Shown: positions 1,561-19,046 of the stretch, piece after piece
Layout: every line of letters starts with the position of its first letter
How positions within the stretch are numbered: position 1 is the stretch's first letter
Source: a virus
IMG/VR virus record: IMGVR_UViG_3300030331_005033
Location: 1 to 23,180 of that record
Length of the DNA stretch: 23,180 nt
Direction: 5' to 3' (one strand)
Notes under the pieces: generated by a model
What the model was told of the DNA's origin: nothing
Database searches by the model: none
What the model saw: only the letters and a program-made list of their open reading frames with translations
Program-made: the position numbers and the translations under genes

Positions 1561-1890
1561 ATGAGTTTTGCAGTAGGTAGATATTCAAATGCAATATGCG
1601 ATAGATGTGGGTTTGAAGTAAAATATCTTGAATTAAGTCAAGAATGGAATGGTTTATTAGTATGTCAAGAATGTTTTGAACCAAAACACCCACAGTTAGA
1701 GCCACCTTTTGCAAGTGCTGACGCAGAGGCTTTAGAAAATCCTAGACCACAAGTTCAATTGCCTTTAACTGTCACAGTTGGCATACCTAACGACACCTTC
1801 TTCACATCTAATGGTATGCAACCATCACAAATAAGTGATGACTTGAACATAATCTCAACTGTTGGTACAGTTAGCGTGGTAATAACATGA
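1561..1890 (+). CDS. Small zinc-ribbon phage protein
   Basis: This 109-residue protein carries two CxxC pairs, Cys13/Cys16 and Cys35/Cys38, separated by an Glu-Trp-Asn-Gly (EWNG) turn and followed by EPKHPQ. That is a clear zinc-ribbon layout at the N-terminus. The C-terminal half is Pro/Gln- and beta-rich (PRPQVQLPLTVTVGIPNDTF), with no membrane segment. The start codon abuts the upstream stop with no gap, and the end overlaps the next gene by four bases (ATGA). I recall similar CDRCG...EWNGL.VC..C...HPQ proteins between the adaptor genes of marine podoviruses. The specific role is unknown; a small structural connector or assembly factor fits the position. Confidence 0.6.
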   Translation: MSFAVGRYSNAICDRCGFEVKYLELSQEWNGLLVCQECFEPKHPQLEPPFASADAEALENPRPQVQLPLTVTVGIPNDTFFTSNGMQPSQISDDLNIISTVGTVSVVIT

Positions 1891-2573
1891 ATTATTCTGA
1901 ACTCTTGACAAATGTGCGTGATTATACAGAGGTTACTAGTGATGTTTTAACTGACTCTATAATAAATACTTTTATTATTAATATTGAAAATAAAATTGAT
2001 AGAGCGATAGATTATGATGCACAAAGGAGATACGCTACTACATCCTTAGTGGCTAACAATTCTTTTATTGATGTTTCGGGACCTGAGGGCGGCTTTAGAT
2101 TTGCTAGAGGTTTACAATTACATAAATCAGACGGCACTATTGTTTGGCTCCAACAGGTAGACACAACATTTATTGACGAATATTCTGTTGAAAGATCAAC
2201 ATCTGATACTAATTTTGAAGGAGAGCCTAGATATTGGGCTAATTGGGATGCTACTACTCTTATAGTAGCCCCTACACCCGATCAAGCTTATACTGTAGAA
2301 ATGTGGTATAATGAAACCCCTGAGAGAATTAGCAGCACAAATACAACCACATTTATTTCTAATAATGCACCTGAGGTTTTATTATATGGCACAATTGCAG
2401 AGGCCTATTCTTACTTGAAAAATCCACAGGATATGCAATTATATGAAGCTAAGTTTACCGCTGCTCTTAAACTTTTTGCAGATGAGCAGATGGGTAGAAA
2501 ACGCAGGGATGAGTATGTCGATGGTGTACTACGAATTCCCTTAACATCATTAGATCCTAAAGGGGGTACATAA
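1887..2573 (+). CDS. Head-tail connector/adaptor, SU10-adaptor-like
   Basis: This 228-residue protein has the layout of a second phage adaptor: an N-terminal helical segment (residues about 1-45, with TDSIINTFIINIENKIDRAI), a central beta domain (GGFRFARGLQLH, then RYWANWDATTLIVAPTPD), a strand reading TVEMWYNETPERIS, and a C-terminal helical tail (VLLYGTIAEAYSYLKNPQDM, later RKRRDEY). The order 'TVxxWYxxxPExxS ... PEVLLYGxxxEAYxxLK' is what I remember from SU10-type adaptor proteins that form a ring between portal and nozzle. It overlaps the upstream zinc-ribbon gene by four bases. Function at the head-tail joint is inferred; the family name is moderately certain. Confidence 0.55.
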   Translation: MNYSELLTNVRDYTEVTSDVLTDSIINTFIINIENKIDRAIDYDAQRRYATTSLVANNSFIDVSGPEGGFRFARGLQLHKSDGTIVWLQQVDTTFIDEYSVERSTSDTNFEGEPRYWANWDATTLIVAPTPDQAYTVEMWYNETPERISSTNTTTFISNNAPEVLLYGTIAEAYSYLKNPQDMQLYEAKFTAALKLFADEQMGRKRRDEYVDGVLRIPLTSLDPKGGT

Positions 2574-3026: not shown

Positions 3027-4376
3027 ATGACCACTTTCACGGTTACGGTAGTCAGCACTGGAGGTGGTAATAAGTATTATATTGATGGCGTTCAACAAGC
3101 GAGTGTATCGCTTATCGCTAATAATACATTTATCTTTGATCAGTCAGATGCATCAAATGATGGGCACCCTTTACAGTTAAGTGAGACATCTAACGGAACT
3201 CACAATGGTGGGAGCCGATACGATACTAACGTAACTTATCAAGGTGATGGAAGTGATGTTTCTGCATCTGACTATATTTCAAATTTTAATTCTTACACCA
3301 CTCGTAGCGTTACAATATCTGTAGCGTTAACTACTCCTAATCTTTTTTATTATTGTTTTTATCACTCAGGCATGGGTGGCTCTGCTTCTTTTTCTAATCC
3401 TTTACAAGGGTGGGGCAGACAAGGTTGGAATGATGGCACATGGGGAGGACCTGTACCTGTAAGCCTTACAGGTTTATCTACAACTTCTGCATTAGGCACT
3501 GAAAGTGTTGTAGGTGACGCTTTAGTTACATTAGACTCATTACAAATATCATCATCCCTGGCTGATGTACTTGCTGAGGCAACTAACATCTTTCCTGTCA
3601 CGGGTGTTTCTTCAACAACAACTCTCGGATCTGTAAGTATTTTAGAAGGACACGGTGTTTTACTAGGTAGCTTACAAATGAATTTTGCTTCAGGTGATGA
3701 AACAGCATCTGGAACTGTCGATGCAGGTTGGGGTAGATCAACGTGGGGATCTTTTGCATGGAATGAGAATATAGAATTTATTACTAACGTCAGTGGGGTT
3801 TCAATGTCTACAGCGTTAGGCACTACAACACAAGAGGTTGGAACAGGTGTTATAGTAAGTCCTACAGGACTGTCAATGACTTCCGCATCAGGGGATATTT
3901 CAGGAACAGGTCTTGCAATTGTAACTCCAACTCCTGTCACTATCGGTGCAGCTTTGTCAGGTGTTACAGTATCTGGTGAAGGTAGTGTTGGAGTAGTGGC
4001 TCCTTCAGATCAATTAGACTTTAGTTTAGGCACAGTAACTATAGATATCTTTACACAAGTAGATCCTGTCGGTGTTTCTATGACAACTAATGCAGGTGCA
4101 ATAGGCACAGTTTCTGATGCCTTAGTGCAACTATCAGGAGTAAGTGTTTCCTTTGCGGCAGGTACTGCAGGTACAGAGGTTGGCACAGGTGTGATTGTTA
4201 GTGTGTCCACTGTCGCATTGTCTTTCGCTTCTGGAACAGCTTCTGCCGTAGGTGACGCTCCTGTATTTCCTACAGGTGTTTCTATGACATCTTCGGTAGG
4301 AGATTTATTTAGCACACCGTGGGCTAATGTGGTTACAGGGGCAAGTAACACATGGACAGGGGTTGATGCAGCGTAA
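3027..4376 (+). CDS. Virion protein: cupredoxin-like domain plus tandem repeats
   Basis: This 449-residue protein has two parts. Residues about 1-125 form a beta-rich domain with a complete type 1 copper ligand set: His47 (DGHPLQL), then Cys110, His113 and Met116 in YYCFYHSGMGG. The C-x2-H-x2-M spacing equals that of amicyanin. Residues 148-432 consist of about twelve short repeats around TG(V/L)SMTSxxG, and Trp-Gly motifs (GWGRQGW at 128, GWGRSTWG at 234) interrupt them. There is no signal peptide. It sits between a structural beta protein and the S74 fiber, so it is probably a tail or surface protein. AGAGG-like bases precede the ATG. I recall related domains ending HSGMGG in marine phage proteins; copper binding itself is inferred. 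Confidence 0.65.
   Translation: MTTFTVTVVSTGGGNKYYIDGVQQASVSLIANNTFIFDQSDASNDGHPLQLSETSNGTHNGGSRYDTNVTYQGDGSDVSASDYISNFNSYTTRSVTISVALTTPNLFYYCFYHSGMGGSASFSNPLQGWGRQGWNDGTWGGPVPVSLTGLSTTSALGTESVVGDALVTLDSLQISSSLADVLAEATNIFPVTGVSSTTTLGSVSILEGHGVLLGSLQMNFASGDETASGTVDAGWGRSTWGSFAWNENIEFITNVSGVSMSTALGTTTQEVGTGVIVSPTGLSMTSASGDISGTGLAIVTPTPVTIGAALSGVTVSGEGSVGVVAPSDQLDFSLGTVTIDIFTQVDPVGVSMTTNAGAIGTVSDALVQLSGVSVSFAAGTAGTEVGTGVIVSVSTVALSFASGTASAVGDAPVFPTGVSMTSSVGDLFSTPWANVVTGASNTWTGVDAA
3468..4322 (+). repeat. About twelve tandem 20-26-residue coding repeats
   Basis: Within the cupredoxin-like virion protein, residues about 148-432 repeat a unit with the core (T/S)-G-(V/L)-S-(M/V)-(T/S)-x3-G followed by a Gly/Val-rich tail such as EVGTGVIVSP. 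Clear copies include TGLSTTSALGT, TGVSSTTTLGS, SGVSMSTALGT, TGLSMTSASGD, VGVSMTTNAGA, SGVSVSFAAGT and TGVSMTSSVGD; others are diverged. The DNA copies differ mostly at third positions, so the array is old and kept at the protein level. Confidence 0.65.
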
Positions 4377-4427: not shown

Positions 4428-5501
4428 ATGAGCAGTTCATATTCATCTAGATATTTATTAGAATTAATGGCTACAGGAGCCAATGCTAATACTTGGGGTA
4501 CCAATACTAACAATAACCTCAATGTTATTGATGCTTTTTCAACAGGTTACATATCTAAATCTGTAGCAGGATCTTCAAATATTACCCTGACTACGACTAA
4601 TGGTAGTTCTACAACTGAGTCAGCTAATAGAAATATTGAGTTAACAGGTGCCCTAACGGGTGACATTGTTGTATTCATACCTGCCACAGAAAGCACTTAT
4701 ACATTTTTTAATAATACTACAGGTTCACAAACATTAACAATTGCTGCCACAGGTCATACAGCTAATGGTGTTACAATTACGCAAGGTGCAAAAACAAGTA
4801 TTTTTTGTGATGGTGCATCAAATTACAATATAAAAAAATGGGCCTCTACTGATTTAGGTTCTTTAACAGGAACTTTACCCGCAGTATCAGGAGCTAACTT
4901 AACCTCATTAAATGCATCTGAATTAGATTCAGGAACAGTTCCTAATGCTAGATTAGACGCACAGCTACAAGATATAGCAGGATTGGCAGTTACTGATAGC
5001 GCTATAATTGTTGGTAACGGATCTAATTTTGTCTTGGAGTCAGGTGCAACCATGAGAACTTCTTTGGGCTTAGGCACAGGCTCTGATGTTCAATTTAATG
5101 ATATGCAAGTAGACTCACTTGGTGTGGCGACAGCAGCATCAGGTACAAGTGGTGAGATTAGAGCTACAAATGACATCACTGCTTTTTATTCTTCTGATGT
5201 GGCATTGAAAGAAAATATAGAAAATATTTCATCACCTATGGATAAAGTTCAAAATCTCAATGGTGTTTTATTTGATTGGAAACAAGATTTTATAGATGCA
5301 AAAGGTGGTGAGGATGGTTATTTTGTGCGTAAAAGAGATGTTGGAGTAGTAGCACAAGATGTAGAAAAAGTTTTACCAGAGGTCGTAGGCACACGACCAG
5401 ATGGAGTCAAAGCTGTTAAGTATGACAGATTATGTGCATTACTAATTGAATGTGTAAAGGATTTACAAACTCAAGTGAATGATCTTAAGAAGGGAGAATA
5501 A
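4428..5501 (+). CDS. Tail fiber with C-terminal peptidase S74 chaperone domain
   Basis: This 357-residue fiber ends in an intramolecular chaperone of the peptidase S74 family. The domain starts at Ser256-Asp257 (SSDVALKENI, with Lys261), followed by LNGVLFDWKQD, DVGVVAQDVEKVLPEVV and VKYDRLCALLIECVKDLQ, all standard for the family. In known members the chaperone drives trimer folding and then cuts itself off just before the serine, so cleavage before Ser256 is predicted and the mature fiber would be about 255 residues. The N-terminus (LMATGANANTWGTNTNNNLN) and the repeated GSLTGTLPAVSG region are typical of marine phage fibers. A GGAGG at 4417-4421 precedes the ATG. It is followed by a glycine-rich adhesin. 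Confidence 0.85.
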   Translation: MSSSYSSRYLLELMATGANANTWGTNTNNNLNVIDAFSTGYISKSVAGSSNITLTTTNGSSTTESANRNIELTGALTGDIVVFIPATESTYTFFNNTTGSQTLTIAATGHTANGVTITQGAKTSIFCDGASNYNIKKWASTDLGSLTGTLPAVSGANLTSLNASELDSGTVPNARLDAQLQDIAGLAVTDSAIIVGNGSNFVLESGATMRTSLGLGTGSDVQFNDMQVDSLGVATAASGTSGEIRATNDITAFYSSDVALKENIENISSPMDKVQNLNGVLFDWKQDFIDAKGGEDGYFVRKRDVGVVAQDVEKVLPEVVGTRPDGVKAVKYDRLCALLIECVKDLQTQVNDLKKGE

Positions 5502-5504
5502 TAA

Positions 5505-6584
5505 ATGACTACACCTTCAGGTCAAATTAGCTTAGATGATGTTAACACTGAGCTAGACATATCACCAGGAACACAAATTAATATGGATGCTGCTAATGTT
5601 CGTGCATTAGCTGAAGTTCCCTCTGGTGCAATAACAATGTCTGATCTTCAAGGAAAGTCTAATGCTCAATTTATTGTTGCCTCAGGTGGTTCTGAAGCCA
5701 CTAGTGGTGATTACAAAATTCATACTTTTAATTCAAGTGGAACTTTCACCGTAAACCAAGCAGGTAATGCCGCAGGATCAACAGGCGTAGAGTACATGGT
5801 CGTTGCGGGAGGTGGTGGTGGAGGTGCAGGTAGAGGTCAACCTGAAAATAATAATCGTAAAAGACCAGGTGGTGCAGGAGCAGGTGGATTTAGAGAAGCT
5901 AAAAGTCCCTCTGCACCTTTTCCTGCGAGTCCTTTAGCATCTAGTTCTTTAATTACTGTTCCCGCAACTTCATACCCTATTTCTGTAGGTGGTGGAGGTG
6001 GGGGTGCATCACCCACTCCTAATTTTGAGGGAGTTCCTGGTAGTAGTGGATCTACTTCAAGTTTTTCAAGCATAACCTCCGCAGGAGGAGGTGCGGGAGG
6101 TGGTGGAGGAAATGGCTCTGGCACAGGCAGAAATGGAAGTTCTGGCGGCTCTGGCGGAGGTAGTGGAATGGATGGAAGTAGAGGAAATGGTAACAGTCCC
6201 CCTGTTTCCCCACCTCAAGGTAATCCAGGTGGTCAAGGAAACTATAACGGTCAAAGTGGTGGCGGAGCTACAGGATCAGGATCTGGACCTAATTCTCCTT
6301 CTGGTGGAACAGGTGGTGCAGGTGCCACAACTTCAATTACATCATCTTCAGCTTCATACGCAGGTGGTGGAGGAGGCGGTGATGGCTTTGGTGGTGCCCC
6401 TGGTGGAACAGGTGGTGGCGGCAAAGGTGGAGGTTATCGATCTGACGCAGGTAATGGATCTGCAAACACCGGAGGCGGTGGAGGAGGCGGAAGTGGTTTC
6501 CAACCTGTAGGTCCTAGTGGTTATAGACTTAATGGAGGGTCTGGTGGCTCAGGTAAGGTAGTTATAAGGTATAAATATCAATAA
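5505..6584 (+). CDS. Glycine-rich tail adhesin
   Basis: This 359-residue protein has a short N-terminal domain (SGQISLDDVNTELDISPGTQ, then VPSGAITMSDLQGKS, about residues 5-50) seen on many phage fiber-tip proteins, a linking strand (YKIHTFNSSGTFTVNQAG) and then about 250 residues dominated by Gly, Ser, Pro, Asn and Thr, beginning VEYMVVAGGGGGG. This matches the glycine-rich domain family; in phage S16-like adhesins comparable regions pack as polyglycine II helices and present receptor-binding loops. The longest loops here are Pro/Asn/Gln-rich (SPPVSPPQGNPGGQG). The C-terminus ends in the beta strand GKVVIRYKYQ. An AGGGAG Shine-Dalgarno lies before the ATG. Its place after the S74 fiber supports a receptor-binding role, by inference. 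Confidence 0.75.
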   Translation: MTTPSGQISLDDVNTELDISPGTQINMDAANVRALAEVPSGAITMSDLQGKSNAQFIVASGGSEATSGDYKIHTFNSSGTFTVNQAGNAAGSTGVEYMVVAGGGGGGAGRGQPENNNRKRPGGAGAGGFREAKSPSAPFPASPLASSSLITVPATSYPISVGGGGGGASPTPNFEGVPGSSGSTSSFSSITSAGGGAGGGGGNGSGTGRNGSSGGSGGGSGMDGSRGNGNSPPVSPPQGNPGGQGNYNGQSGGGATGSGSGPNSPSGGTGGAGATTSITSSSASYAGGGGGGDGFGGAPGGTGGGGKGGGYRSDAGNGSANTGGGGGGGSGFQPVGPSGYRLNGGSGGSGKVVIRYKYQ

Positions 6585-7680: not shown

Positions 7681-8304
7681 ATGATATTCGAAAATTCGTT
7701 TGCTTGTTTTGATAGTGTAATTCCTTCACGAATTTGTGATTTAATCATTGCAGATGCAGAACTAAAAAATCCAGAGGTAGCTCTTACAGGTGATACTAAT
7801 AGTATAAACTTACAGAATCAAACAGACGTTTCTAAACTCTATAAAACGAGAAACTCCTCTATAGTTTGGATGGATAACTCTTGGATCTATCGAGAAGTAA
7901 TACCTTATGTATTAGAGGCTAATAAAGTATGTGGTTGGAATTTTGACTTAACAAAATCTGAATCATGTCAATTTACTAAGTATAGCGAAACTCAACATTA
8001 CACATGGCATCAAGATAGTTGGAGAAATCCTTATAACAAACCAGGCGATCCAGATCATGGATTAATAAGAAAAATATCCGTTACTGTGTCACTTGCTAGT
8101 GGCGATGATTATGATGGTGGAGATCTTGAACTTGATTTAAGAGATAACAAAGATGGCTTACCTAATATTATTAAATCAGAATTAGCTAGAAAAAAAGGAT
8201 CAATAACAGTTTTTCCTTCATACATTTGGCACAGAGTAACCCCTGTTACTAGAGGTACTAGATACTCTTTAGTAGTTTGGAATTTAGGTAACCCATTTAG
8301 ATAG
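7681..8304 (+). CDS. 2OG-Fe(II) oxygenase, prolyl-4-hydroxylase-like
   Basis: This 207-residue protein carries a full set of 2-oxoglutarate/Fe(II) dioxygenase residues: His110 and Asp112 in YTWHQDSW, distal His184 in FPSYIWHRVTPV, and 2OG-binding Arg194 in RGTRYSLVVW exactly ten residues later. The central YDGGDLELDL strand and KGSITVFPS turn are also standard for the P4H/PKHD-type family. Such enzymes hydroxylate a carbon, often on Pro, Lys, Asn or Asp side chains, using O2 and 2-oxoglutarate. A purine-rich AGAGAGAGAG stretch before the ATG acts as the Shine-Dalgarno. This is the best-conserved oxygenase of the cassette; the substrate cannot be read from the sequence. Confidence 0.85.
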   Translation: MIFENSFACFDSVIPSRICDLIIADAELKNPEVALTGDTNSINLQNQTDVSKLYKTRNSSIVWMDNSWIYREVIPYVLEANKVCGWNFDLTKSESCQFTKYSETQHYTWHQDSWRNPYNKPGDPDHGLIRKISVTVSLASGDDYDGGDLELDLRDNKDGLPNIIKSELARKKGSITVFPSYIWHRVTPVTRGTRYSLVVWNLGNPFR

Positions 8305-8312
8305 GAGTAAAT

Positions 8313-8945
8313 ATGGAACAAAATTTTTTTGACAAAAATAATTTTAATGTAGTTAAAGAGGCTATCACCTCTGAAATGGCTTTTTTCTTAAATAAATATT
8401 TTCATAATAAAAGAAAATGTTTAACCTATTTGCAAGAAACAAAAAACATATCTCATCACGATAATTCATGGGGAACATTTAAGGACACACAAATGCCAGG
8501 CACTTATTCTCATTATTCGGATCTGGCTATGGATTCGCTGTTGGAGTGGGTTCAGCCTACAATGCAGAATATTACAGGTTTAAATTTAATACCTTGTTAC
8601 TCATACGCTAGAATATACAAATATGGAGATACTCTACACCGACATAAAGACAGACCTTCATGTGAGATATCTTGCACAATGAATTTAGGTGGGGACACTT
8701 GGCCAATATTTTTAGATCCAACAGGTGAAGTTGGTAAAGAAGGTGTATCTGTAGTTTTAAATCCTGGCGATATGTTAGTTTATAAAGGATCTTTATTAGA
8801 GCATTGGAGAGAACCGTTTCAAGGTTACGAATGTTGCCAAGTTTTTTTACATTACAATGATGCTAATGGACCTAATGGTGAACAAAACTTATTTGATGGT
8901 AGGCCTTTACTTGGCTTACCTGATTGGTCCTCTAGCAAAACATGA
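8313..8945 (+). CDS. 2OG-Fe(II) oxygenase-like protein, cyanophage type
   Basis: This 210-residue protein has the oxygenase core in its C-terminal half: YARIYKYGDTLHRHKDRPSC with His111 and Asp113, followed by CTMNLGGDTWPIF, LNPGDMLVYKGSLLEHWREP with distal His164, and QVFLHYND. No basic residue stands ten positions after the distal His, so 2OG must be held differently or not at all. I recall this 'LHRHxDRPSCEIS' arrangement from a family frequent in cyanophages and annotated as 2OG-Fe(II) oxygenase. The N-terminal half is helical. AGGAGT lies before the ATG, and the end overlaps the next oxygenase gene by four bases. A catalytic role is likely but the substrate is unknown. Confidence 0.7.
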   Translation: MEQNFFDKNNFNVVKEAITSEMAFFLNKYFHNKRKCLTYLQETKNISHHDNSWGTFKDTQMPGTYSHYSDLAMDSLLEWVQPTMQNITGLNLIPCYSYARIYKYGDTLHRHKDRPSCEISCTMNLGGDTWPIFLDPTGEVGKEGVSVVLNPGDMLVYKGSLLEHWREPFQGYECCQVFLHYNDANGPNGEQNLFDGRPLLGLPDWSSSKT

Positions 8946-9523
8946 AGGAGTATTTTTTAGACTTAAACACTTTTATGGGAGCTTGGTACATTCCTAAAAA
9001 CTTGTGTGATTCTTTAATAAATTATTTTGAGTATAATAAAGACTATGCCAAAAAAGGTGCTTGTGGTGGTAAAACTGATGCAATCATAAATAAAAATTAT
9101 AAAGACTCCTTAGATTTATCCATAGGTAAAGATAATAATGATAACATTATAGGTGCGTATAGAAAAGAATTACAAAAAGTTTTAGATAAATATTTAGATA
9201 AATTTCCTGCTAGTAATCAAGTTGCTCCTTTTAGTATTCTTGAAAATTATAATATGCAAAAATATTCAATTGGTGGAGGATTTAAAGAATGGCATACAGA
9301 AAATAATGGAGAAAAAAGCACAATAAATAGACACTTAGTTTTTATGACTTATTTAAATGATGTAGAGGATGGTGGCACAGAATTCAAACATCAAGATATT
9401 ATTACACCTGCTGAAAAAGGGTTGACCTTAATATGGCCATCATGGTGGACACACGTTCATAGGGGGCAGATAAGTAACAAAAAAGAAAAATATATTGTTA
9501 CAGGATGGTATGGCTTTATCTAA
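8942..9523 (+). CDS. 2OG-Fe(II) oxygenase with an HxE metal motif
   Basis: This 193-residue protein shows YSIGGGFKEWHTENN with His118 and Glu120 in place of the common HxD, then FMTYLNDVEDGGTEFKHQD, and a C-terminal LIWPSWWTHVHRG with His171/His173, and Lys183 in KYIVTGWYGFI ten residues after His173. Lysine at this place binds 2OG in prolyl-4-hydroxylases, so His173 is the more likely distal ligand. HxE triads are known in several active dioxygenases. The 'DGGTEF ... WPSxWTHxHRG ... KYxxTGW' pattern is familiar from marine phage and bacterial P4H-like proteins. It overlaps both neighbours. Function as a hydroxylase is well supported; the target is not. Confidence 0.8.
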   Translation: MKEYFLDLNTFMGAWYIPKNLCDSLINYFEYNKDYAKKGACGGKTDAIINKNYKDSLDLSIGKDNNDNIIGAYRKELQKVLDKYLDKFPASNQVAPFSILENYNMQKYSIGGGFKEWHTENNGEKSTINRHLVFMTYLNDVEDGGTEFKHQDIITPAEKGLTLIWPSWWTHVHRGQISNKKEKYIVTGWYGFI

Positions 9524-10079
9524 AGACTTAGAAGATTTTATATTTTATAAAAATATCTTTCCAAGAGATATAATAGATGGAATATTAAATGAATATAAAG
9601 AAAATATTTTTGATAGAGATTCTCATCATAATAAAATATCAAGACATTTAGGTGAGCTAGACATTAGCGATCGATCATTAATAAATAGCAGAAATAGTTA
9701 TGTAAGACAAAAATTATTCGTCGAAACAAAAGATCAAGTAGAAGTTTTAATAGAAGAATATAAAAAATACATTTTACCTTATGGTTTACCTATAGTTGAG
9801 TGCAGTCCATTTTCTTTAAGACAAATGCATGAAGGAGATTATTACGAAGAACATAATGATGACGGAATAGGCAGTGCCACCGGTCAACATAAAATAACAG
9901 TTTCAATTTGTTTAAACGAAAATTATGAGGGAGGTGACTTTACTTTTTTTCAAGAGTCATTGTCTTATACATTAAAAAAGGGAGATGTATTAATGTTTCC
10001 CTCCTCTTTTCAATATCCTCATGGTGTTAAAAAAATTACAAAAGGTACTCGTTATCAGTTGGTCTTATGGCTAAGATAA
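9510..10079 (+). CDS. 2OG-Fe(II) oxygenase, prolyl-4-hydroxylase-like
   Basis: I place the start at the ATG at 9510 (MALSKDLED), giving 189 residues; a TTG 15 bases earlier is possible. In this numbering the metal ligands are His115 and Asp117 in YYEEHNDDG and distal His171 in QYPHGVKK, with Arg181 in KGTRYQLVLW ten residues later. The strand HKITVSICLNENYEGGDFTF and KKGDVLMFPSSF are standard family elements. It resembles the enzyme encoded at 7681 in overall plan but differs in most positions, so the two are not a recent duplication. It overlaps the upstream gene by 14 bases and the downstream glycosyltransferase-like gene by 13, tying hydroxylase and transferase translation together. Confidence 0.85.
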   Translation: MALSKDLEDFIFYKNIFPRDIIDGILNEYKENIFDRDSHHNKISRHLGELDISDRSLINSRNSYVRQKLFVETKDQVEVLIEEYKKYILPYGLPIVECSPFSLRQMHEGDYYEEHNDDGIGSATGQHKITVSICLNENYEGGDFTFFQESLSYTLKKGDVLMFPSSFQYPHGVKKITKGTRYQLVLWLR

Positions 10080-11406: not shown

Positions 11407-12084
11407 ATGTTTAGCTATAAAGAATATGAAAAAATACTTTCAATGTTTGATTTTGTAGATTTTACAGAATTGACAAAGGGTAAAGCAGTATTAAGACATG
11501 ATGTAGAATATAGTCCTAAAAGAGCTTTAGAAATTGCAAAGATAGATGCAGAGCATGACATAAAAAGTAGCTTCTTTTTTCAAGTTTTAAGCACTTGTTA
11601 TAATTTATTCTCTGTTGATAACAGAGAAATTGTTTATGAAATATTAAGTATGGGACATAAAATAGGGTTACATGTCTATTGTTCTTTTGTTTCTGATTAC
11701 AAGTTGAATGATTTAAAAAGTGAAATTGTAAAACAAAAAAACTTAATCGATAATGTTTTTCAAGTTGATAGGTTTTGTTTACATAGACCTAAGGTTTGGA
11801 TGTTAGAACAAAATGATGATTATATTTGTGGCATGTTAAATGCTTATGGTAGATCCTATTTTAATTATCCTAAACCTACGCAAGTTAAGTATTTTGCAGA
11901 TAGCAATCATCAATGGAAATATGGTTATCCCTCATATAATAGTAGCAAAATTCAAATAAATATTCATCCTGACTCTTGGTCAAAAAATGGAGAAAGTATA
12001 AATAAAAATTTTAATAACCTAGCATTAGAAAATATGGATGTATTTAAAGAAGTCTTAAAAAGAGAGGGTAGACACTTTAGGTGA
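11407..12084 (+). CDS. Polysaccharide deacetylase-like (CE4/NodB fold) protein
   Basis: This 225-residue protein has elements of the NodB-homology fold: LRHDVEYSPKRALEIAKID with His31-Asp32, IKSSFFFQVLS, IVYEILSMGHKIGLHVYCSF with His84 and His89, CLHRPKVWM, and a late KIQINIHPDSW. The GHKIGLH element equals motif 2 of carbohydrate esterase family 4, but the second His of HxxxH is replaced by Ser93, so the metal site is incomplete or built differently. Proteins with 'RHDV' and 'GHEIGLH' occur in bacterial surface-polysaccharide clusters. It starts directly after the second DUF616 gene stop and overlaps the epimerase gene downstream. A glycan-modifying role is inferred; deacetylation is not certain. 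Confidence 0.55.
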   Translation: MFSYKEYEKILSMFDFVDFTELTKGKAVLRHDVEYSPKRALEIAKIDAEHDIKSSFFFQVLSTCYNLFSVDNREIVYEILSMGHKIGLHVYCSFVSDYKLNDLKSEIVKQKNLIDNVFQVDRFCLHRPKVWMLEQNDDYICGMLNAYGRSYFNYPKPTQVKYFADSNHQWKYGYPSYNSSKIQINIHPDSWSKNGESINKNFNNLALENMDVFKEVLKREGRHFR

Positions 12085-13031
12085 AAATACTTGTCTTAGG
12101 AGGTCATGGATTTATTGGCAGTCATACTTGTAATATTTTAAAAAAACAAGGATATACAATAGGTGTTGTAGATTGTCATCATCAATACTTTACTTTCCCA
12201 GATAAAGAATATCAAACTATTTTAAAACAAAGACAAGATCATTGTATGGCAGATAAATTTTACAAAGGTAAAATTGAGGATGCAGAGTTTATGAGTAATA
12301 CCTTTAATACATTTAAACCAGATGCAGTTATACATTTTGCCACTTACCCAAATGTACACATGGTAAAACGTAATTCTTTTGACGCTACTAATAATATGAT
12401 AAATGCTACAATTATTATCTTAGACTTATGTGTAAAACATAATGTAGATAAATTCGTTTTTTCAAGTTCATCTATGGCTTACGGACATTTTAAAACTGAA
12501 GCTCCAATGGAAGATCATGCAACAGAACCTCGTTCTTTATATGGCACCTATAAATTATGTGGTGAGAGAATGTGTATAACCTGGAATAAAGAACATAATT
12601 TAAAATACATAATAATGAGGCCCTCTGCTCTTTATGGAACAAGGGACTTAATAACAAGAGTTATTTCTCAAATGACTTATTCTGCAATCACTAAAAAAAA
12701 GATTTTTGTTAGAGGTCCTAATAATAAATTGGATTTTTCTTGGGTTGAAGATGTTGCCGATGCTTTTGCTAGAGTCACTACACAACCTATTTACAATGAA
12801 GTTTTTAATTGCACCAGAGGTAAAGGGGTAACAATAATGAAAGCTGCAAAAATAATACAAAATATTTTAGGTGGTGAGATTATTGAAGAAGAACAAGATT
12901 TATTAACCTCTAATAGAGATACCTTAAATAGCTGTAAAATTAAAAATATGACAAGATGGGATCCTAAAGTAGATATAGAAGAAGGCATACCTAGGTACAT
13001 AAATTGGTTTAAGAAAAATTATAATGTTTAA
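12081..13031 (+). CDS. NAD-dependent epimerase/dehydratase (extended SDR, GalE-like)
   Basis: This 316-residue protein is a full-length extended short-chain dehydrogenase. It has the Rossmann GxxGxxG motif at Gly7-Gly10-Gly13 (LVLGGHGFIGSH), the serine strand FSSSSMAYG at about 127-135, the catalytic Tyr154-x3-Lys158 (YGTYK), the RPSALYG strand and FSWVEDVADAF late in the chain. These enzymes change the sugar of a nucleotide sugar, for example by 4-epimerisation or 4,6-dehydration. The start is a GTG at 12081 overlapping the upstream TGA; no nearer ATG fits the Rossmann strand. It overlaps the second epimerase gene by eight bases. It probably supplies the sugar donor for nearby transferases. 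Cys-Gly after the Tyr/Lys motif is typical. Confidence 0.85.
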   Translation: MKILVLGGHGFIGSHTCNILKKQGYTIGVVDCHHQYFTFPDKEYQTILKQRQDHCMADKFYKGKIEDAEFMSNTFNTFKPDAVIHFATYPNVHMVKRNSFDATNNMINATIIILDLCVKHNVDKFVFSSSSMAYGHFKTEAPMEDHATEPRSLYGTYKLCGERMCITWNKEHNLKYIIMRPSALYGTRDLITRVISQMTYSAITKKKIFVRGPNNKLDFSWVEDVADAFARVTTQPIYNEVFNCTRGKGVTIMKAAKIIQNILGGEIIEEEQDLLTSNRDTLNSCKIKNMTRWDPKVDIEEGIPRYINWFKKNYNV

Positions 13032-13713
13032 GATATTATTAAGTGGACATAAAGGTTTTATAGGTAGGCACATATACGATCATTTTAAAAGTGACTATCA
13101 TATAGACACTTTAGGTAGAGGAGATAAGTTACCAAACAAAAATTATGATCTTGTTATTCATTTAGCAGGAAGCTCTGGTGTACGAGAGAGTTGGAAGAAA
13201 CCATTAAAATACGTTATAGACAACATATTGTTATCTTGTAAAATATTTAAAAAATACAATAGAGTCATATTTGCTAGTACAAGTGCAGTAGTAGAGCCGT
13301 GGAGAAATCCTTATGTTTTTAGTAAATATATTGTAGAGAAAATAGCACCAAAAAACTCACTAGCTGTACGATTTACCACTGTCTATGGCCCGTGGTCTAG
13401 AAAAAATATGTTTATATCCAAATTAATTGATAATAATTTGCAATATGTTAGTATTGATTGCATAAGGGATTTTATACACGTTTATGATGTAATACAGTTT
13501 TTTGAACTTATAATAAAAAGTAAAATGGAAGGAGTTATTAATGTTGGCACAGGTAAATCTATACCTGTAACTAATTTAATAAATTATAAATTACCCACTA
13601 AAAAATCGTCCTTCTTAGAAGTAAAAAAAGAAAAAGTTGATATTACAAAATTAAAATCTTTAGGATTTAAACCTGTATTTAAAGTAGAGGAATATGTAAA
13701 TCGTGTTAGATAA
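13024..13713 (+). CDS. Short NAD-dependent epimerase/reductase (extended SDR)
   Basis: This 229-residue protein is a second extended SDR. It has Gly8-Gly11-Gly14 (LLSGHKGFIGRH), an LVIHLAGSSGV strand, the FASTSAVVEPW serine strand, Tyr97-x3-Lys101 (YVFSK), VRFTTVYGPW and RDFIHVYDVIQF. It is about 80-90 residues shorter than usual for the class; the N-terminal strands are compressed and the C-terminal substrate domain is small, but all catalytic residues remain, so it looks streamlined rather than broken. Such proteins include dTDP-6-deoxy-L-hexulose reductases and UDP-glucose epimerases. It has little similarity to its neighbour beyond the fold. Its 3' end overlaps the next oxygenase gene by 11 bases. 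Confidence 0.8.
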   Translation: MFKILLSGHKGFIGRHIYDHFKSDYHIDTLGRGDKLPNKNYDLVIHLAGSSGVRESWKKPLKYVIDNILLSCKIFKKYNRVIFASTSAVVEPWRNPYVFSKYIVEKIAPKNSLAVRFTTVYGPWSRKNMFISKLIDNNLQYVSIDCIRDFIHVYDVIQFFELIIKSKMEGVINVGTGKSIPVTNLINYKLPTKKSSFLEVKKEKVDITKLKSLGFKPVFKVEEYVNRVR

Positions 13714-15394: not shown

Positions 15395-15881
15395 AGTAAA
15401 CAACAACGAAATATTAAGAGAGCATAATGTTTTATCTGAAGAGGATAGAGAGCTTATTCTTAAAGACGTTAAATATGAAATAAAAAATAACCTTTGTAAT
15501 TATGCAGATCCTTATCAGACACATGCAAATCTTTTACAAAGATATCAAGATAAAACTTATTGGAGTAGACTATATTCGACGGCTAGAGCCATGATTGACA
15601 ACAATTATATTTATTATAAATCATGGGCTAATTTATCAAACGAGCATAACAATTATCAGTTTCATCAACATGAAAACAAAATGACATGTGTATACTATCT
15701 TAAGAGCAATTTACCAGAGTATGGCACAAAATTAGAGGGTGATGTAATATTAGAGTCAACACAAAATTCAATGATAGCTTTTGATGGTATGATACTTCAC
15801 TCTGTAGCAAATATGCCTAAGAATATAGCAAAAGATAATCCAAGATATTCTATTGTTTTCAACTTTAAATTATCGCAATGA
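15381..15881 (+). CDS. 2OG-Fe(II) oxygenase-like protein, HxH type
   Basis: This 166-residue protein has SWANLSNEHNNYQFHQHENKM with His95 and His97 (Glu98 follows), MTCVYYLKSN, MIAFDGMILHSVANMP with distal His140, and Arg155 in PRYSIVFNF. The pattern 'W.n........H.H......vYYl ... H.v.p ... RyS..fN' is that of the TIGR02466-like putative 2OG-Fe(II) oxygenase family, whose members keep HxH rather than HxD. It overlaps the transferase gene by 14 bases and the next gene by four. The N-terminal half is helical. Whether the HxH site binds iron as in the classical enzymes is not established from the sequence. Confidence 0.65.
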   Translation: MIKIKVNNNEILREHNVLSEEDRELILKDVKYEIKNNLCNYADPYQTHANLLQRYQDKTYWSRLYSTARAMIDNNYIYYKSWANLSNEHNNYQFHQHENKMTCVYYLKSNLPEYGTKLEGDVILESTQNSMIAFDGMILHSVANMPKNIAKDNPRYSIVFNFKLSQ

Positions 15882-16351
15882 AACTTATTGAACTATCAAT
15901 TTCACAAAAAGATTGTGAAGAAATTACAAACTTTGTTTATCAAGAGAAAAAAAATTGGAAAAAAGATCTTAATAATGTAAAAGCTCTAAGCTCTGGATTT
16001 TACCCAGATTATGATTTTATTCACGACATAGGAGATTTTTGTTGTAAAAATGTTCTACCACAGGAAACTAATCATTCTCATTGGCATAAAAGCTGTTGGT
16101 GGGTAAATTTATATGAAAAAGGTCATTATACTAATCCGCATCATCATAATCCTGAGGAATACTCAATGATCGTAATAGTAAAACCTGCATTGGAAAAATA
16201 TTGTCTAAACTTTCATACAGAATTTGCATCTTACAAAATTGAGGAAAGACAAGGACTTTGTTTACTTTTTGAATCATCTCTAAAACATAGTGTTGACCCT
16301 GTCAGTAGTGATAGAATTACAATAGCTATGGATTTTAGAAAAAATCAATAG
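15878..16351 (+). CDS. 2OG-Fe(II) oxygenase-like protein, His-triplet type
   Basis: This 157-residue protein follows the same plan as its upstream neighbour: CWWVNLYEKGHYTNPHHHNP with His88-His89-His90, YSMIVIVKP, LLFESSLKHSVDPV with distal His137, and Arg146 in DRITIAMDF. The 'WWVNxYxxGxxNxPHxH' element is typical of TIGR02466-like oxygenase-related phage proteins. Two cysteines (FCCKN) and several Trp/His residues (SHWHKSCWW) precede the core. It is the last gene of the large cassette; 12 bases separate it from the nozzle/gp10-like gene. It is probably a metal-dependent dioxygenase, but the triple His makes the exact ligand pair uncertain. Confidence 0.65.
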   Translation: MKLIELSISQKDCEEITNFVYQEKKNWKKDLNNVKALSSGFYPDYDFIHDIGDFCCKNVLPQETNHSHWHKSCWWVNLYEKGHYTNPHHHNPEEYSMIVIVKPALEKYCLNFHTEFASYKIEERQGLCLLFESSLKHSVDPVSSDRITIAMDFRKNQ

Positions 16352-18190: not shown

Positions 18191-18513
18191 TGGAACCCTT
18201 AGAGGAGCTTAAAATTTGGAAACAAAAACCCTTTATTAAATCTAATTATGAGAACATACATATTTTTTATGATGATCAAAAATATGTAAGAATGAAGCCT
18301 AAAACACAAATAAGTTTATCACCTGGTTTTTTACATTTAATACTAAAAAAGCCGGGACATTGGGCAAAAGAAAATATAAAGATAGAGGGTGATGTTACAC
18401 TCTGTAATGAAACACATGATGTAATATATTACACTCTTATTGAATCGTTGATATCAGACGAAGATAATGAGTTTAAATTGTATGTAAAGAACGGAATACA
18501 AAAACACCAATGA
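18190..18513 (+). CDS. Hypothetical protein
   Basis: This 107-residue soluble protein is not recognised. It reads as an alternating strand pattern with Lys-rich stretches (LEELKIWKQKPFIKS, KYVRMKPKTQISLSPGFLHL) and no cysteine pair, signal peptide or membrane helix. It has one cysteine (TLCNETHDV) and a C-terminus that ends KNGIQKHQ. Its ATG shares a base with the TAA of the nozzle gene (TAATG) and its TGA overlaps the ATG of the next oxygenase gene. Such tight coupling suggests a small partner of one of these neighbours. Beta content and 'SLSPGFLHLIL' loosely recall jelly-roll proteins, but no metal ligands are visible. Confidence 0.6.
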   Translation: MEPLEELKIWKQKPFIKSNYENIHIFYDDQKYVRMKPKTQISLSPGFLHLILKKPGHWAKENIKIEGDVTLCNETHDVIYYTLIESLISDEDNEFKLYVKNGIQKHQ

Positions 18514-19046
18514 AACTAGACTTATTTTCTATACCTATATGGATAGGTAATATAGACGCTTCCAGAATTATTGTTGATGACACTGATTTGTCACAAACTT
18601 TTAGATCAGAAATAAAAACATCATTTTCTGAACAAAATAATATACCGCAAGATTCTTTAGACTATCTTTATGATGTTATTATAAAATTATTAAACAGATC
18701 AATAACCCGACCATATAATATTAAGTTAGGTCACATATGGAATAATTATTATGAATCTGATGATTATCAAGAAATACATACTCATCCTGGCTCAGATGTA
18801 TCTTTTATTATTTACAAAAAAATTAAAGAGTCCTCGACAATATTTCAAAATCCTAACAGCTCTGTAATTGGTAGTTATTATCATAGTTGTGATACGCTAA
18901 CAAAACTTGTCGGTAACCTTGATTATCGACCAGAGTGTAGAGAAAATCAAATTGTTGTCTTTCCTAGCTTTTTAGAACACTATGTTAGAAAGACAAGCAA
19001 TGCGTTGACCGTTTCAGGTAACATGAAAATTACAATAAATGAATGA
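18510..19046 (+). CDS. 2OG-Fe(II) oxygenase-like protein, HxH type
   Basis: This 178-residue protein starts with LDLFSIPIWIGNID, a typical N-terminus of TIGR02466-like proteins (often 'lFptPvw'). It then has LGHIWNNYYESDDYQEIHTH with His90 and His92, VSFIIYKKIKE, VVFPSFLEHYVRKTSNALTV with distal His157, and VSGNMKI. The usual C-terminal arginine before the last strand is absent; the segment reads NALTVSGNM, so 2OG binding would need another residue. It resembles the enzymes at 15381 and 15878 in class, but more closely matches the canonical length of the family. It overlaps both flanking genes by four bases. The likely role is oxygenation of an unknown substrate. Confidence 0.65.
   Translation: MKLDLFSIPIWIGNIDASRIIVDDTDLSQTFRSEIKTSFSEQNNIPQDSLDYLYDVIIKLLNRSITRPYNIKLGHIWNNYYESDDYQEIHTHPGSDVSFIIYKKIKESSTIFQNPNSSVIGSYYHSCDTLTKLVGNLDYRPECRENQIVVFPSFLEHYVRKTSNALTVSGNMKITINE

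Follow-up and report, generated by a model that had tools for sequence, protein, structure and literature searches.

Why a protein of the phage adsorption apparatus might carry the ligands of a blue copper protein is the question raised by a 449-amino-acid tail-type protein encoded in a virus record of 23,180 bases (hereafter the window). An earlier note on this DNA proposed a type 1 copper site in the N-terminal domain of a phage surface protein, and the coordinates, the residue numbering, and the four candidate ligands that it named all proved to be right (Table 1). The repeats that it described in the remainder of the protein are also present. Overall, four lines of evidence give strong support to the prediction of a type 1 site in a tail-type protein of a phage: the fold of the domain, the conservation of the ligands, their loss as a group, and a link in sequence to the Copper-bind family.

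Table 1. Positions in the window of the protein, its predicted copper ligands, and relevant neighbouring genes.
Feature	Position	Strand	Description	Basis
449-aa tail-type protein	3027..4376	+	N-terminal predicted cupredoxin domain, then short beta-type repeats	ORF, PHROG matches, structural neighbours
Predicted cupredoxin domain, aa 1-125	3027..3401	+	Best structural matches are copper proteins	AlphaFold2 model, pLDDT 96.6
His47, predicted N-terminal copper ligand	3165-3167 (cac)	+	Loop between strands 34-38 and 49-52	
Cys110, predicted thiolate copper ligand	3354-3356 (tgt)	+	End of strand 106-110	
His113, predicted copper ligand	3363-3365 (cac)	+	Loop between strands 106-110 and 118-123	
Met116, predicted axial copper ligand	3372-3374 (atg)	+	Same loop as His113	
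C-terminal remainder	3405..4373	+	GWGRxxW patch and TGVSMTTALGT-type repeats; conserved C-terminus NTWTxVDAA	Sequence
SU10 adaptor-like proteins	892-1560 and 1887-2573		Upstream of the 449-aa ORF	
Protein with S74 chaperone domain	4428-5501		Downstream of the 449-aa ORF	
Glycine-rich protein	5505-6584		Downstream of the 449-aa ORF	
Five 2OG-Fe(II) oxygenase genes	7681-8304, 8942-9523, 9495-10079, 15878-16351, 18510-19046		Within the structural gene region	Pfam, above cut-off

The assignment of the protein to the tail or adsorption apparatus relies both on its setting and on its relatives. Family matches of the neighbouring genes show that the frame is surrounded by structural genes, and the neighbourhood also encodes a virion structural protein. 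The N-terminus of the protein matches PHROG 708 (baseplate wedge subunit) at 2.9e-17 and PHROG 30742 (tail fibre) at 9.8e-7, in addition to other PHROGs, and the annotations of its relatives name tail fibres, baseplates, or the virion, which supports the surface location proposed earlier. A signal peptide is absent by eye and the domain begins right at the N-terminus, which together suggest that the protein is synthesized in the cytosol. Elsewhere in the window, two consecutive NAD-dependent epimerase/dehydratase-like proteins were recognized by eye near glycosylation-type genes (12081-13713).

Structure prediction gave a consistent picture of the domain. An alignment of 110 sequences (A2, also used as a profile) served as the input for AlphaFold2, and the resulting model is all-beta, with a mean pLDDT of 96.6 and a pTM of 0.90, in keeping with the beta-rich domain of cupredoxin size that had been described. 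The model and its VIA-align matches agree on a Greek-key beta-barrel of about 100-130 residues, as in the cupredoxin superfamily. In cupredoxins, one histidine lies in a loop before one strand and a Cys-His-Met group lies between the last two strands; the His, Cys, His, and Met of the window domain occur in this canonical order and in these loops. When the model was compared with the PDB using Foldseek, the top match was a copper nitrite reductase (E 9.9e-4), and 20 of the first 21 rows were copper proteins (nitrite reductase, rusticyanin, AcoP, and multicopper oxidases), the remaining row being a factor VIII entry that we take to be a cupredoxin-fold protein. VIA-align placed residues 26-133 of 2dv6_A at the top (Z 9.8, rmsd 2.5 A, 98 aligned), and all 50 matches listed were copper proteins (nitrite reductases, laccases, and rusticyanins), with Z from 9.8 to 8.3. 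The top Z is only slightly over the range of 7-8 that the tool calls "common", but the uniform list of copper proteins is telling. We consider it almost certain that the domain has a cupredoxin fold.

Other structural comparisons were more mixed or extended to other viruses. Profile searches of the PDB gave weak matches with antibodies intermixed, and the pseudoazurin (0.36 and 0.27) and copper oxidase (0.039) matches among them are only consistent with a cupredoxin. Nanobodies and antibodies also came from a single-sequence PDB search (E 0.0095 and weaker), and these were taken as chance beta-sandwich matches. Among predicted viral structures, 62 match the domain model at E <= 0.001, many of which are cyanophage virion or tail proteins, and an S-TIM5 protein whose annotation reads 'virion structural protein and packaging' matches at 2.1e-13. 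Matches at 3.4e-6 to 2.2e-5 also came from three BFVD entries (A0A481Z6J5, A0A481Z7Q7, and A0A481YVH3), named as 'beta-sandwich proteins' of Pithovirus and Marseillevirus.

Direct sequence searches were far less forthcoming. The window domain has 0 matches in Pfam and 0 in NCBIfam, and it does not reach the curated cut-off of PF00127 (Copper-bind). Within the 110-sequence set, PF00127 matched 6 members at E up to 0.1 (best 0.009) and NCBIfam models were searched as well, with no clear cupredoxin found by either; the amicyanin model TIGR02657, which has no match in the window, matched one of the 110 relatives, at 0.0021. The Pfam family CBM_4_9 reaches more members than Copper-bind (11 of 110 versus 6 of 110), with a best value of 0.0081, and was rejected as a weak match given that the structural matches listed are copper proteins. 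Motifs of the HxH type, which serve the trinuclear copper cluster of multicopper oxidases, are absent from residues 1-125, which include three histidines only (47, 59, and 113).

The evidence for homology to cupredoxins is instead indirect, by way of flavobacterial intermediates. The A2 profile matches one segment in each of two flavobacterial genomes (2.3e-10 and 3.3e-9), and the same two segments are matched by PF00127 above its curated cut-off (6.0e-6 and 7.9e-6). Because these segments are shared by the two profiles, homology to plastocyanin/azurin-type cupredoxins is supported by sequence as well as by structure. In the A2-profile alignment, the segment L170 has H, C, H, and M in the four ligand columns, and it returned PF00127 at 7.6e-6 in a further Pfam search. 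Three further PF00127 proteins from related genomes are matched by A2 weakly, at 0.00034 to 0.0026 in what was a small sequence set.

The earlier note held that a lack of ligand conservation alongside a conserved remainder would speak against a copper site. The opposite was found. All four residues are invariant across a 19-sequence alignment, and 201 domain copies, 184 of which have the full set, were recovered with hmmsearch from 165 records (the window plus 164 loci, with L042, a copy of the window, dropped). The spacing C-x2-H-x2-M, which the note had also pointed out, is seen in 183 of these 184. In a total of 389,433 residues, from 1133 reading frames that are each 150 aa or longer, the pattern C..H..M occurs 183 times inside domain copies and 0 times outside, in loci that were gathered for the domain and partly by the C..H..M motif itself; as a matter of sequence, its occurrence in the domain copies is beyond chance.

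After removal of 81 copies that came from a ligand-pattern scan, 120 copies remain, a sample that is imperfectly neutral in that one of its six search patterns includes Cys. Of these, 103 keep four ligands, whereas all four are missing in 11, three in 4, two in 1, and one in 1; independent loss at the observed rates would give 0.03 copies without four and 0.8 without three. At the level of sequence, the ligands are shown to be kept or lost as a set. The 15 copies with at least three ligands lost retain Phe37 (93%), Gly57 (93%), Pro104 (100%), and Gly32 (100%), while Pro48 (98% to 7%) and Tyr108 (98% to 27%) disappear together with the ligands. Asn15 and Ile19 drop too, from 84% to 27% and 20%, respectively, indicating that the change in ligand-poor copies extends beyond the site. 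The single one-ligand loss, in P-RSM6 (L150, 2983-3327), keeps His, Cys, and His and has Gln at the Met position, an axial variant known from stellacyanin, and the two-ligand loss belongs to S-CAM4, where the domain match ends past Cys.

Ten of the 15 ligand-poor rows group in a single clade, which corresponds to the second domain copy within the cyanophage wedge protein. With the ligand columns left out, the tree requires 6 or more state changes, of which well-supported branches force only 2, and a phylogeny-aware paired comparison, with 2 pairs on supported branches, has no statistical power. Ligand-less copies have been kept in some phages, and thus the fold can serve without metal. One stand-alone gene of 339 bases, PSS2_gp080 (L144:5998-6315), encodes almost only the domain and is without the first His, the Cys, and the second His.

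The domain is widespread in marine phages and is not confined to one type of virion protein. Of 50,697 phage records, 330 were matched by the window domain in a tblastn search at E up to 1 (315 at E up to 0.01), and by name these 330 comprise 252 Synechococcus, 49 Cyanophage, 18 Prochlorococcus, 4 Pelagibacter, and 4 Methylophilales records and three others. The named PHROGs that match the domain are tail or virion families. Twenty-five of the 330 records were examined, and the full ligand set is present in 23 of them, PSS2 and P-RSM6 being those without it, and 12 of the 25 have intact copies in two adjoining frames, a gp9-type connector and a wedge protein. In Syn33, P-SSM7, S-CAM22, and their relatives, the C-terminus of the connector bears an intact copy, and the gene that follows ('baseplate wedge subunit') bears both an intact and a ligand-less copy. 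The S-CAM22 connector with its intact copy matches T4_gp9_10_N at 5e-12, and both of the wedge proteins examined for it, from S-CAM22 and Syn33, include YHYH-family sequence. The wedge proteins at L157:1312-5436 and L145:4264-9426 combine an intact domain, YHYH (PF14240, 9.1e-16 and 6.4e-14), and a ligand-less copy.

Relatives are also found in other architectures and in bacteria. In a contig binned as Pelagibacter (L138), Phage_T7_tail (PF03906, 1e-38) lies N-terminal to an intact domain at 477-567 of the frame. Bacterial contigs carry the domain in proteins of the surface type, within a cadherin-containing protein (L135) or as two copies in proteins of about 430 aa (L136, L129, L130, and L132), and flavobacterial genomes L124, L127, and L131 have an intact copy in frames of 6085-9219 aa, which probably encode giant surface proteins. 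Plasmids gave 0 domain matches. Proteomic data bear on the location of the family: PMC10665884 reports 24 unique peptides for S-CREM2 ORF130 (98589-103511) in the virion proteome. This protein bears a copy of the domain (6.3e-7; region 67000-105000 of the record examined, outside the conservation counts), which places the family on virions, but the copy concerned is ligand-less.

On balance, we think it probable that this virion adsorption protein has a copper site of the cupredoxin kind, which would probably act as a metal-locked module for binding or structure. The separate parts of this reading differ in strength. The four residues very probably form a functional metal site, and the metal that we infer for it is likely copper. 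The compact beta-barrel would hold one copper ion through His47, Cys110, His113, and Met116 in the style of a type 1 (blue) site. The domain is a module of the adsorption apparatus: it is tail-fibre-like in the window, belongs to the wedge protein and the gp9-type connector of T4-like cyanophages, and lies distally in the T7-type tail fibre of the pelagiphage-like contig. Having been made in the cytosol, it may acquire copper in seawater once the cell has lysed, or on reaching or entering the periplasm of the next host. Copper could then lock the loop of the C-H-M triad, and the result would be a stiff module at the surface that serves binding or assembly. Participation in an electron-transfer chain would not be the likeliest job, since the spread over fibres, connectors, wedge, and bacterial surface proteins and the lack of any common redox partner seen speak for a module that is portable and against an electron carrier. 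Even so, the evidence is evenly poised on whether the role is structural or binding rather than redox.

A more active function can be imagined, in which copper is bound or reduced at the host surface and so alters the domain, helping to fire a rearrangement of the baseplate or fibre. Such a redox-active or copper-gated trigger fits with the intact copies in adjoining connector and wedge frames and with ligands that are kept or lost as a set, but we judge it unlikely given that no partner redox protein was seen, that ligand-less copies persist, and that non-firing T7-type fibres and bacterial surface proteins bear the domain too. The electron-transfer idea in its most specific form, put forward in the earlier note, linked the domain to the iron oxygenases encoded nearby. 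Five neighbouring genes do score above the cut-off of 2OG-FeII Pfam models, yet the domain is part of a structural protein, and only one of the 25 phage records (S-H38) lists a 2OG oxygenase in the annotated stretches around the relatives. Moreover, 2OG-Fe(II) oxygenases draw their electrons from 2-oxoglutarate and act in the cell. This partnership can be set aside with great confidence. The other roles offered in the note, copper-dependent fold stabilisation, copper scavenging, and the use of a host copper receptor, are still candidates.

Two further proposals concern how, or whether, copper itself matters. A host copper-uptake receptor might recognize the copper-loaded domain, a form of metal piracy that would suit its location in fibres and connectors, and PMC11705849 presents an iron version of this proposal for HxH motifs of phage tail fibres. 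The hosts, however, are very different (cyanobacteria, SAR11, and Methylophilales). We know of no copper receptor that these groups share, and the copper of a type 1 site is mostly hidden from the surface, which makes receptor use quite improbable. It is also conceivable that the site holds zinc or another metal, or is metal-free in the virion, with the ligands kept for fold stability alone. Free copper is scarce in the cytosol, where assembly occurs, and the ligand-less copies show that the fold stands without metal. However, Met is conserved at the cupredoxin position and is lost together with Cys and both His, P-RSM6 keeps H, C, and H with Gln in the place of Met, and the domain is homologous to Copper-bind, and we consequently regard a site that does without copper as very improbable. 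A copper-bearing module with a binding or structural role is the reading that we retain.

Comparison with known systems helps to define what is distinctive about the domain. It shares with the plastocyanin/azurin cupredoxins (PF00127) a common predicted fold, the ligand positions, and the match on two flavobacterial segments, but it has no direct Pfam match and is a module of a virion protein rather than a soluble periplasmic electron carrier. The second sphere differs as well, because residue 48 is Pro (His-Pro) where plastocyanin and azurin have Asn (His-Asn). Amicyanin has the same C-x2-H-x2-M spacing and a His-to-Cys distance shorter than in the window domain, where Cys110 is 63 positions past His47. 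The nearest structural match, with 16% identity, is the N-terminal cupredoxin domain of the Hyphomicrobium denitrificans three-domain copper nitrite reductase (2dv6 and 6tfo), a domain that is part of an enzyme and has a presumed role in electron transfer. The soluble plastocyanin (petE) encoded by cyanophages is likewise a cupredoxin of marine phages, but petE is expressed inside the host cell and serves metabolism, whereas the window case is a domain of a tail protein.

A metal in a marine phage tail protein has been proposed before, for tail-fibre HxH motifs that would bind iron and in the iron Trojan Horse ('Ferrojan Horse') hypothesis (PMC11705849). The window domain differs from these motifs in ligands, fold, and metal, and HxH is absent from it. 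The viral NirK of PMC8115048 is also distinct from the phage-tail domain. Among the matches listed in a search of the open-licence PMC literature, none dealt with a cupredoxin carried by a phage virion. The chemistry is already known, but the phage-tail cupredoxin family, which lacks its own Pfam entry, is apparently undescribed in open-licence papers as far as these searches show.

A bolder extension would be that the tails and baseplates of abundant ocean phages are copper proteins, and that T4-like cyanophage baseplates, with intact type 1 sites in connector and wedge, bind or reduce copper at the host surface as a gate on adsorption or firing, such that dissolved copper controls infection, and this we regard as a long shot. 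The copper reading itself can be tested directly in cultured cyanophages. If copper is bound, then baseplate and fibre regions that are currently annotated as 'hypothetical' or only as 'baseplate wedge' would gain a name, and a large group of marine phages, which by name are nearly all phages of picocyanobacteria, SAR11, and Methylophilales, would have blue-copper-type sites on their virions. Copper would thereby join the metal chemistry of phage attachment, and virions would be part of the marine copper pool.
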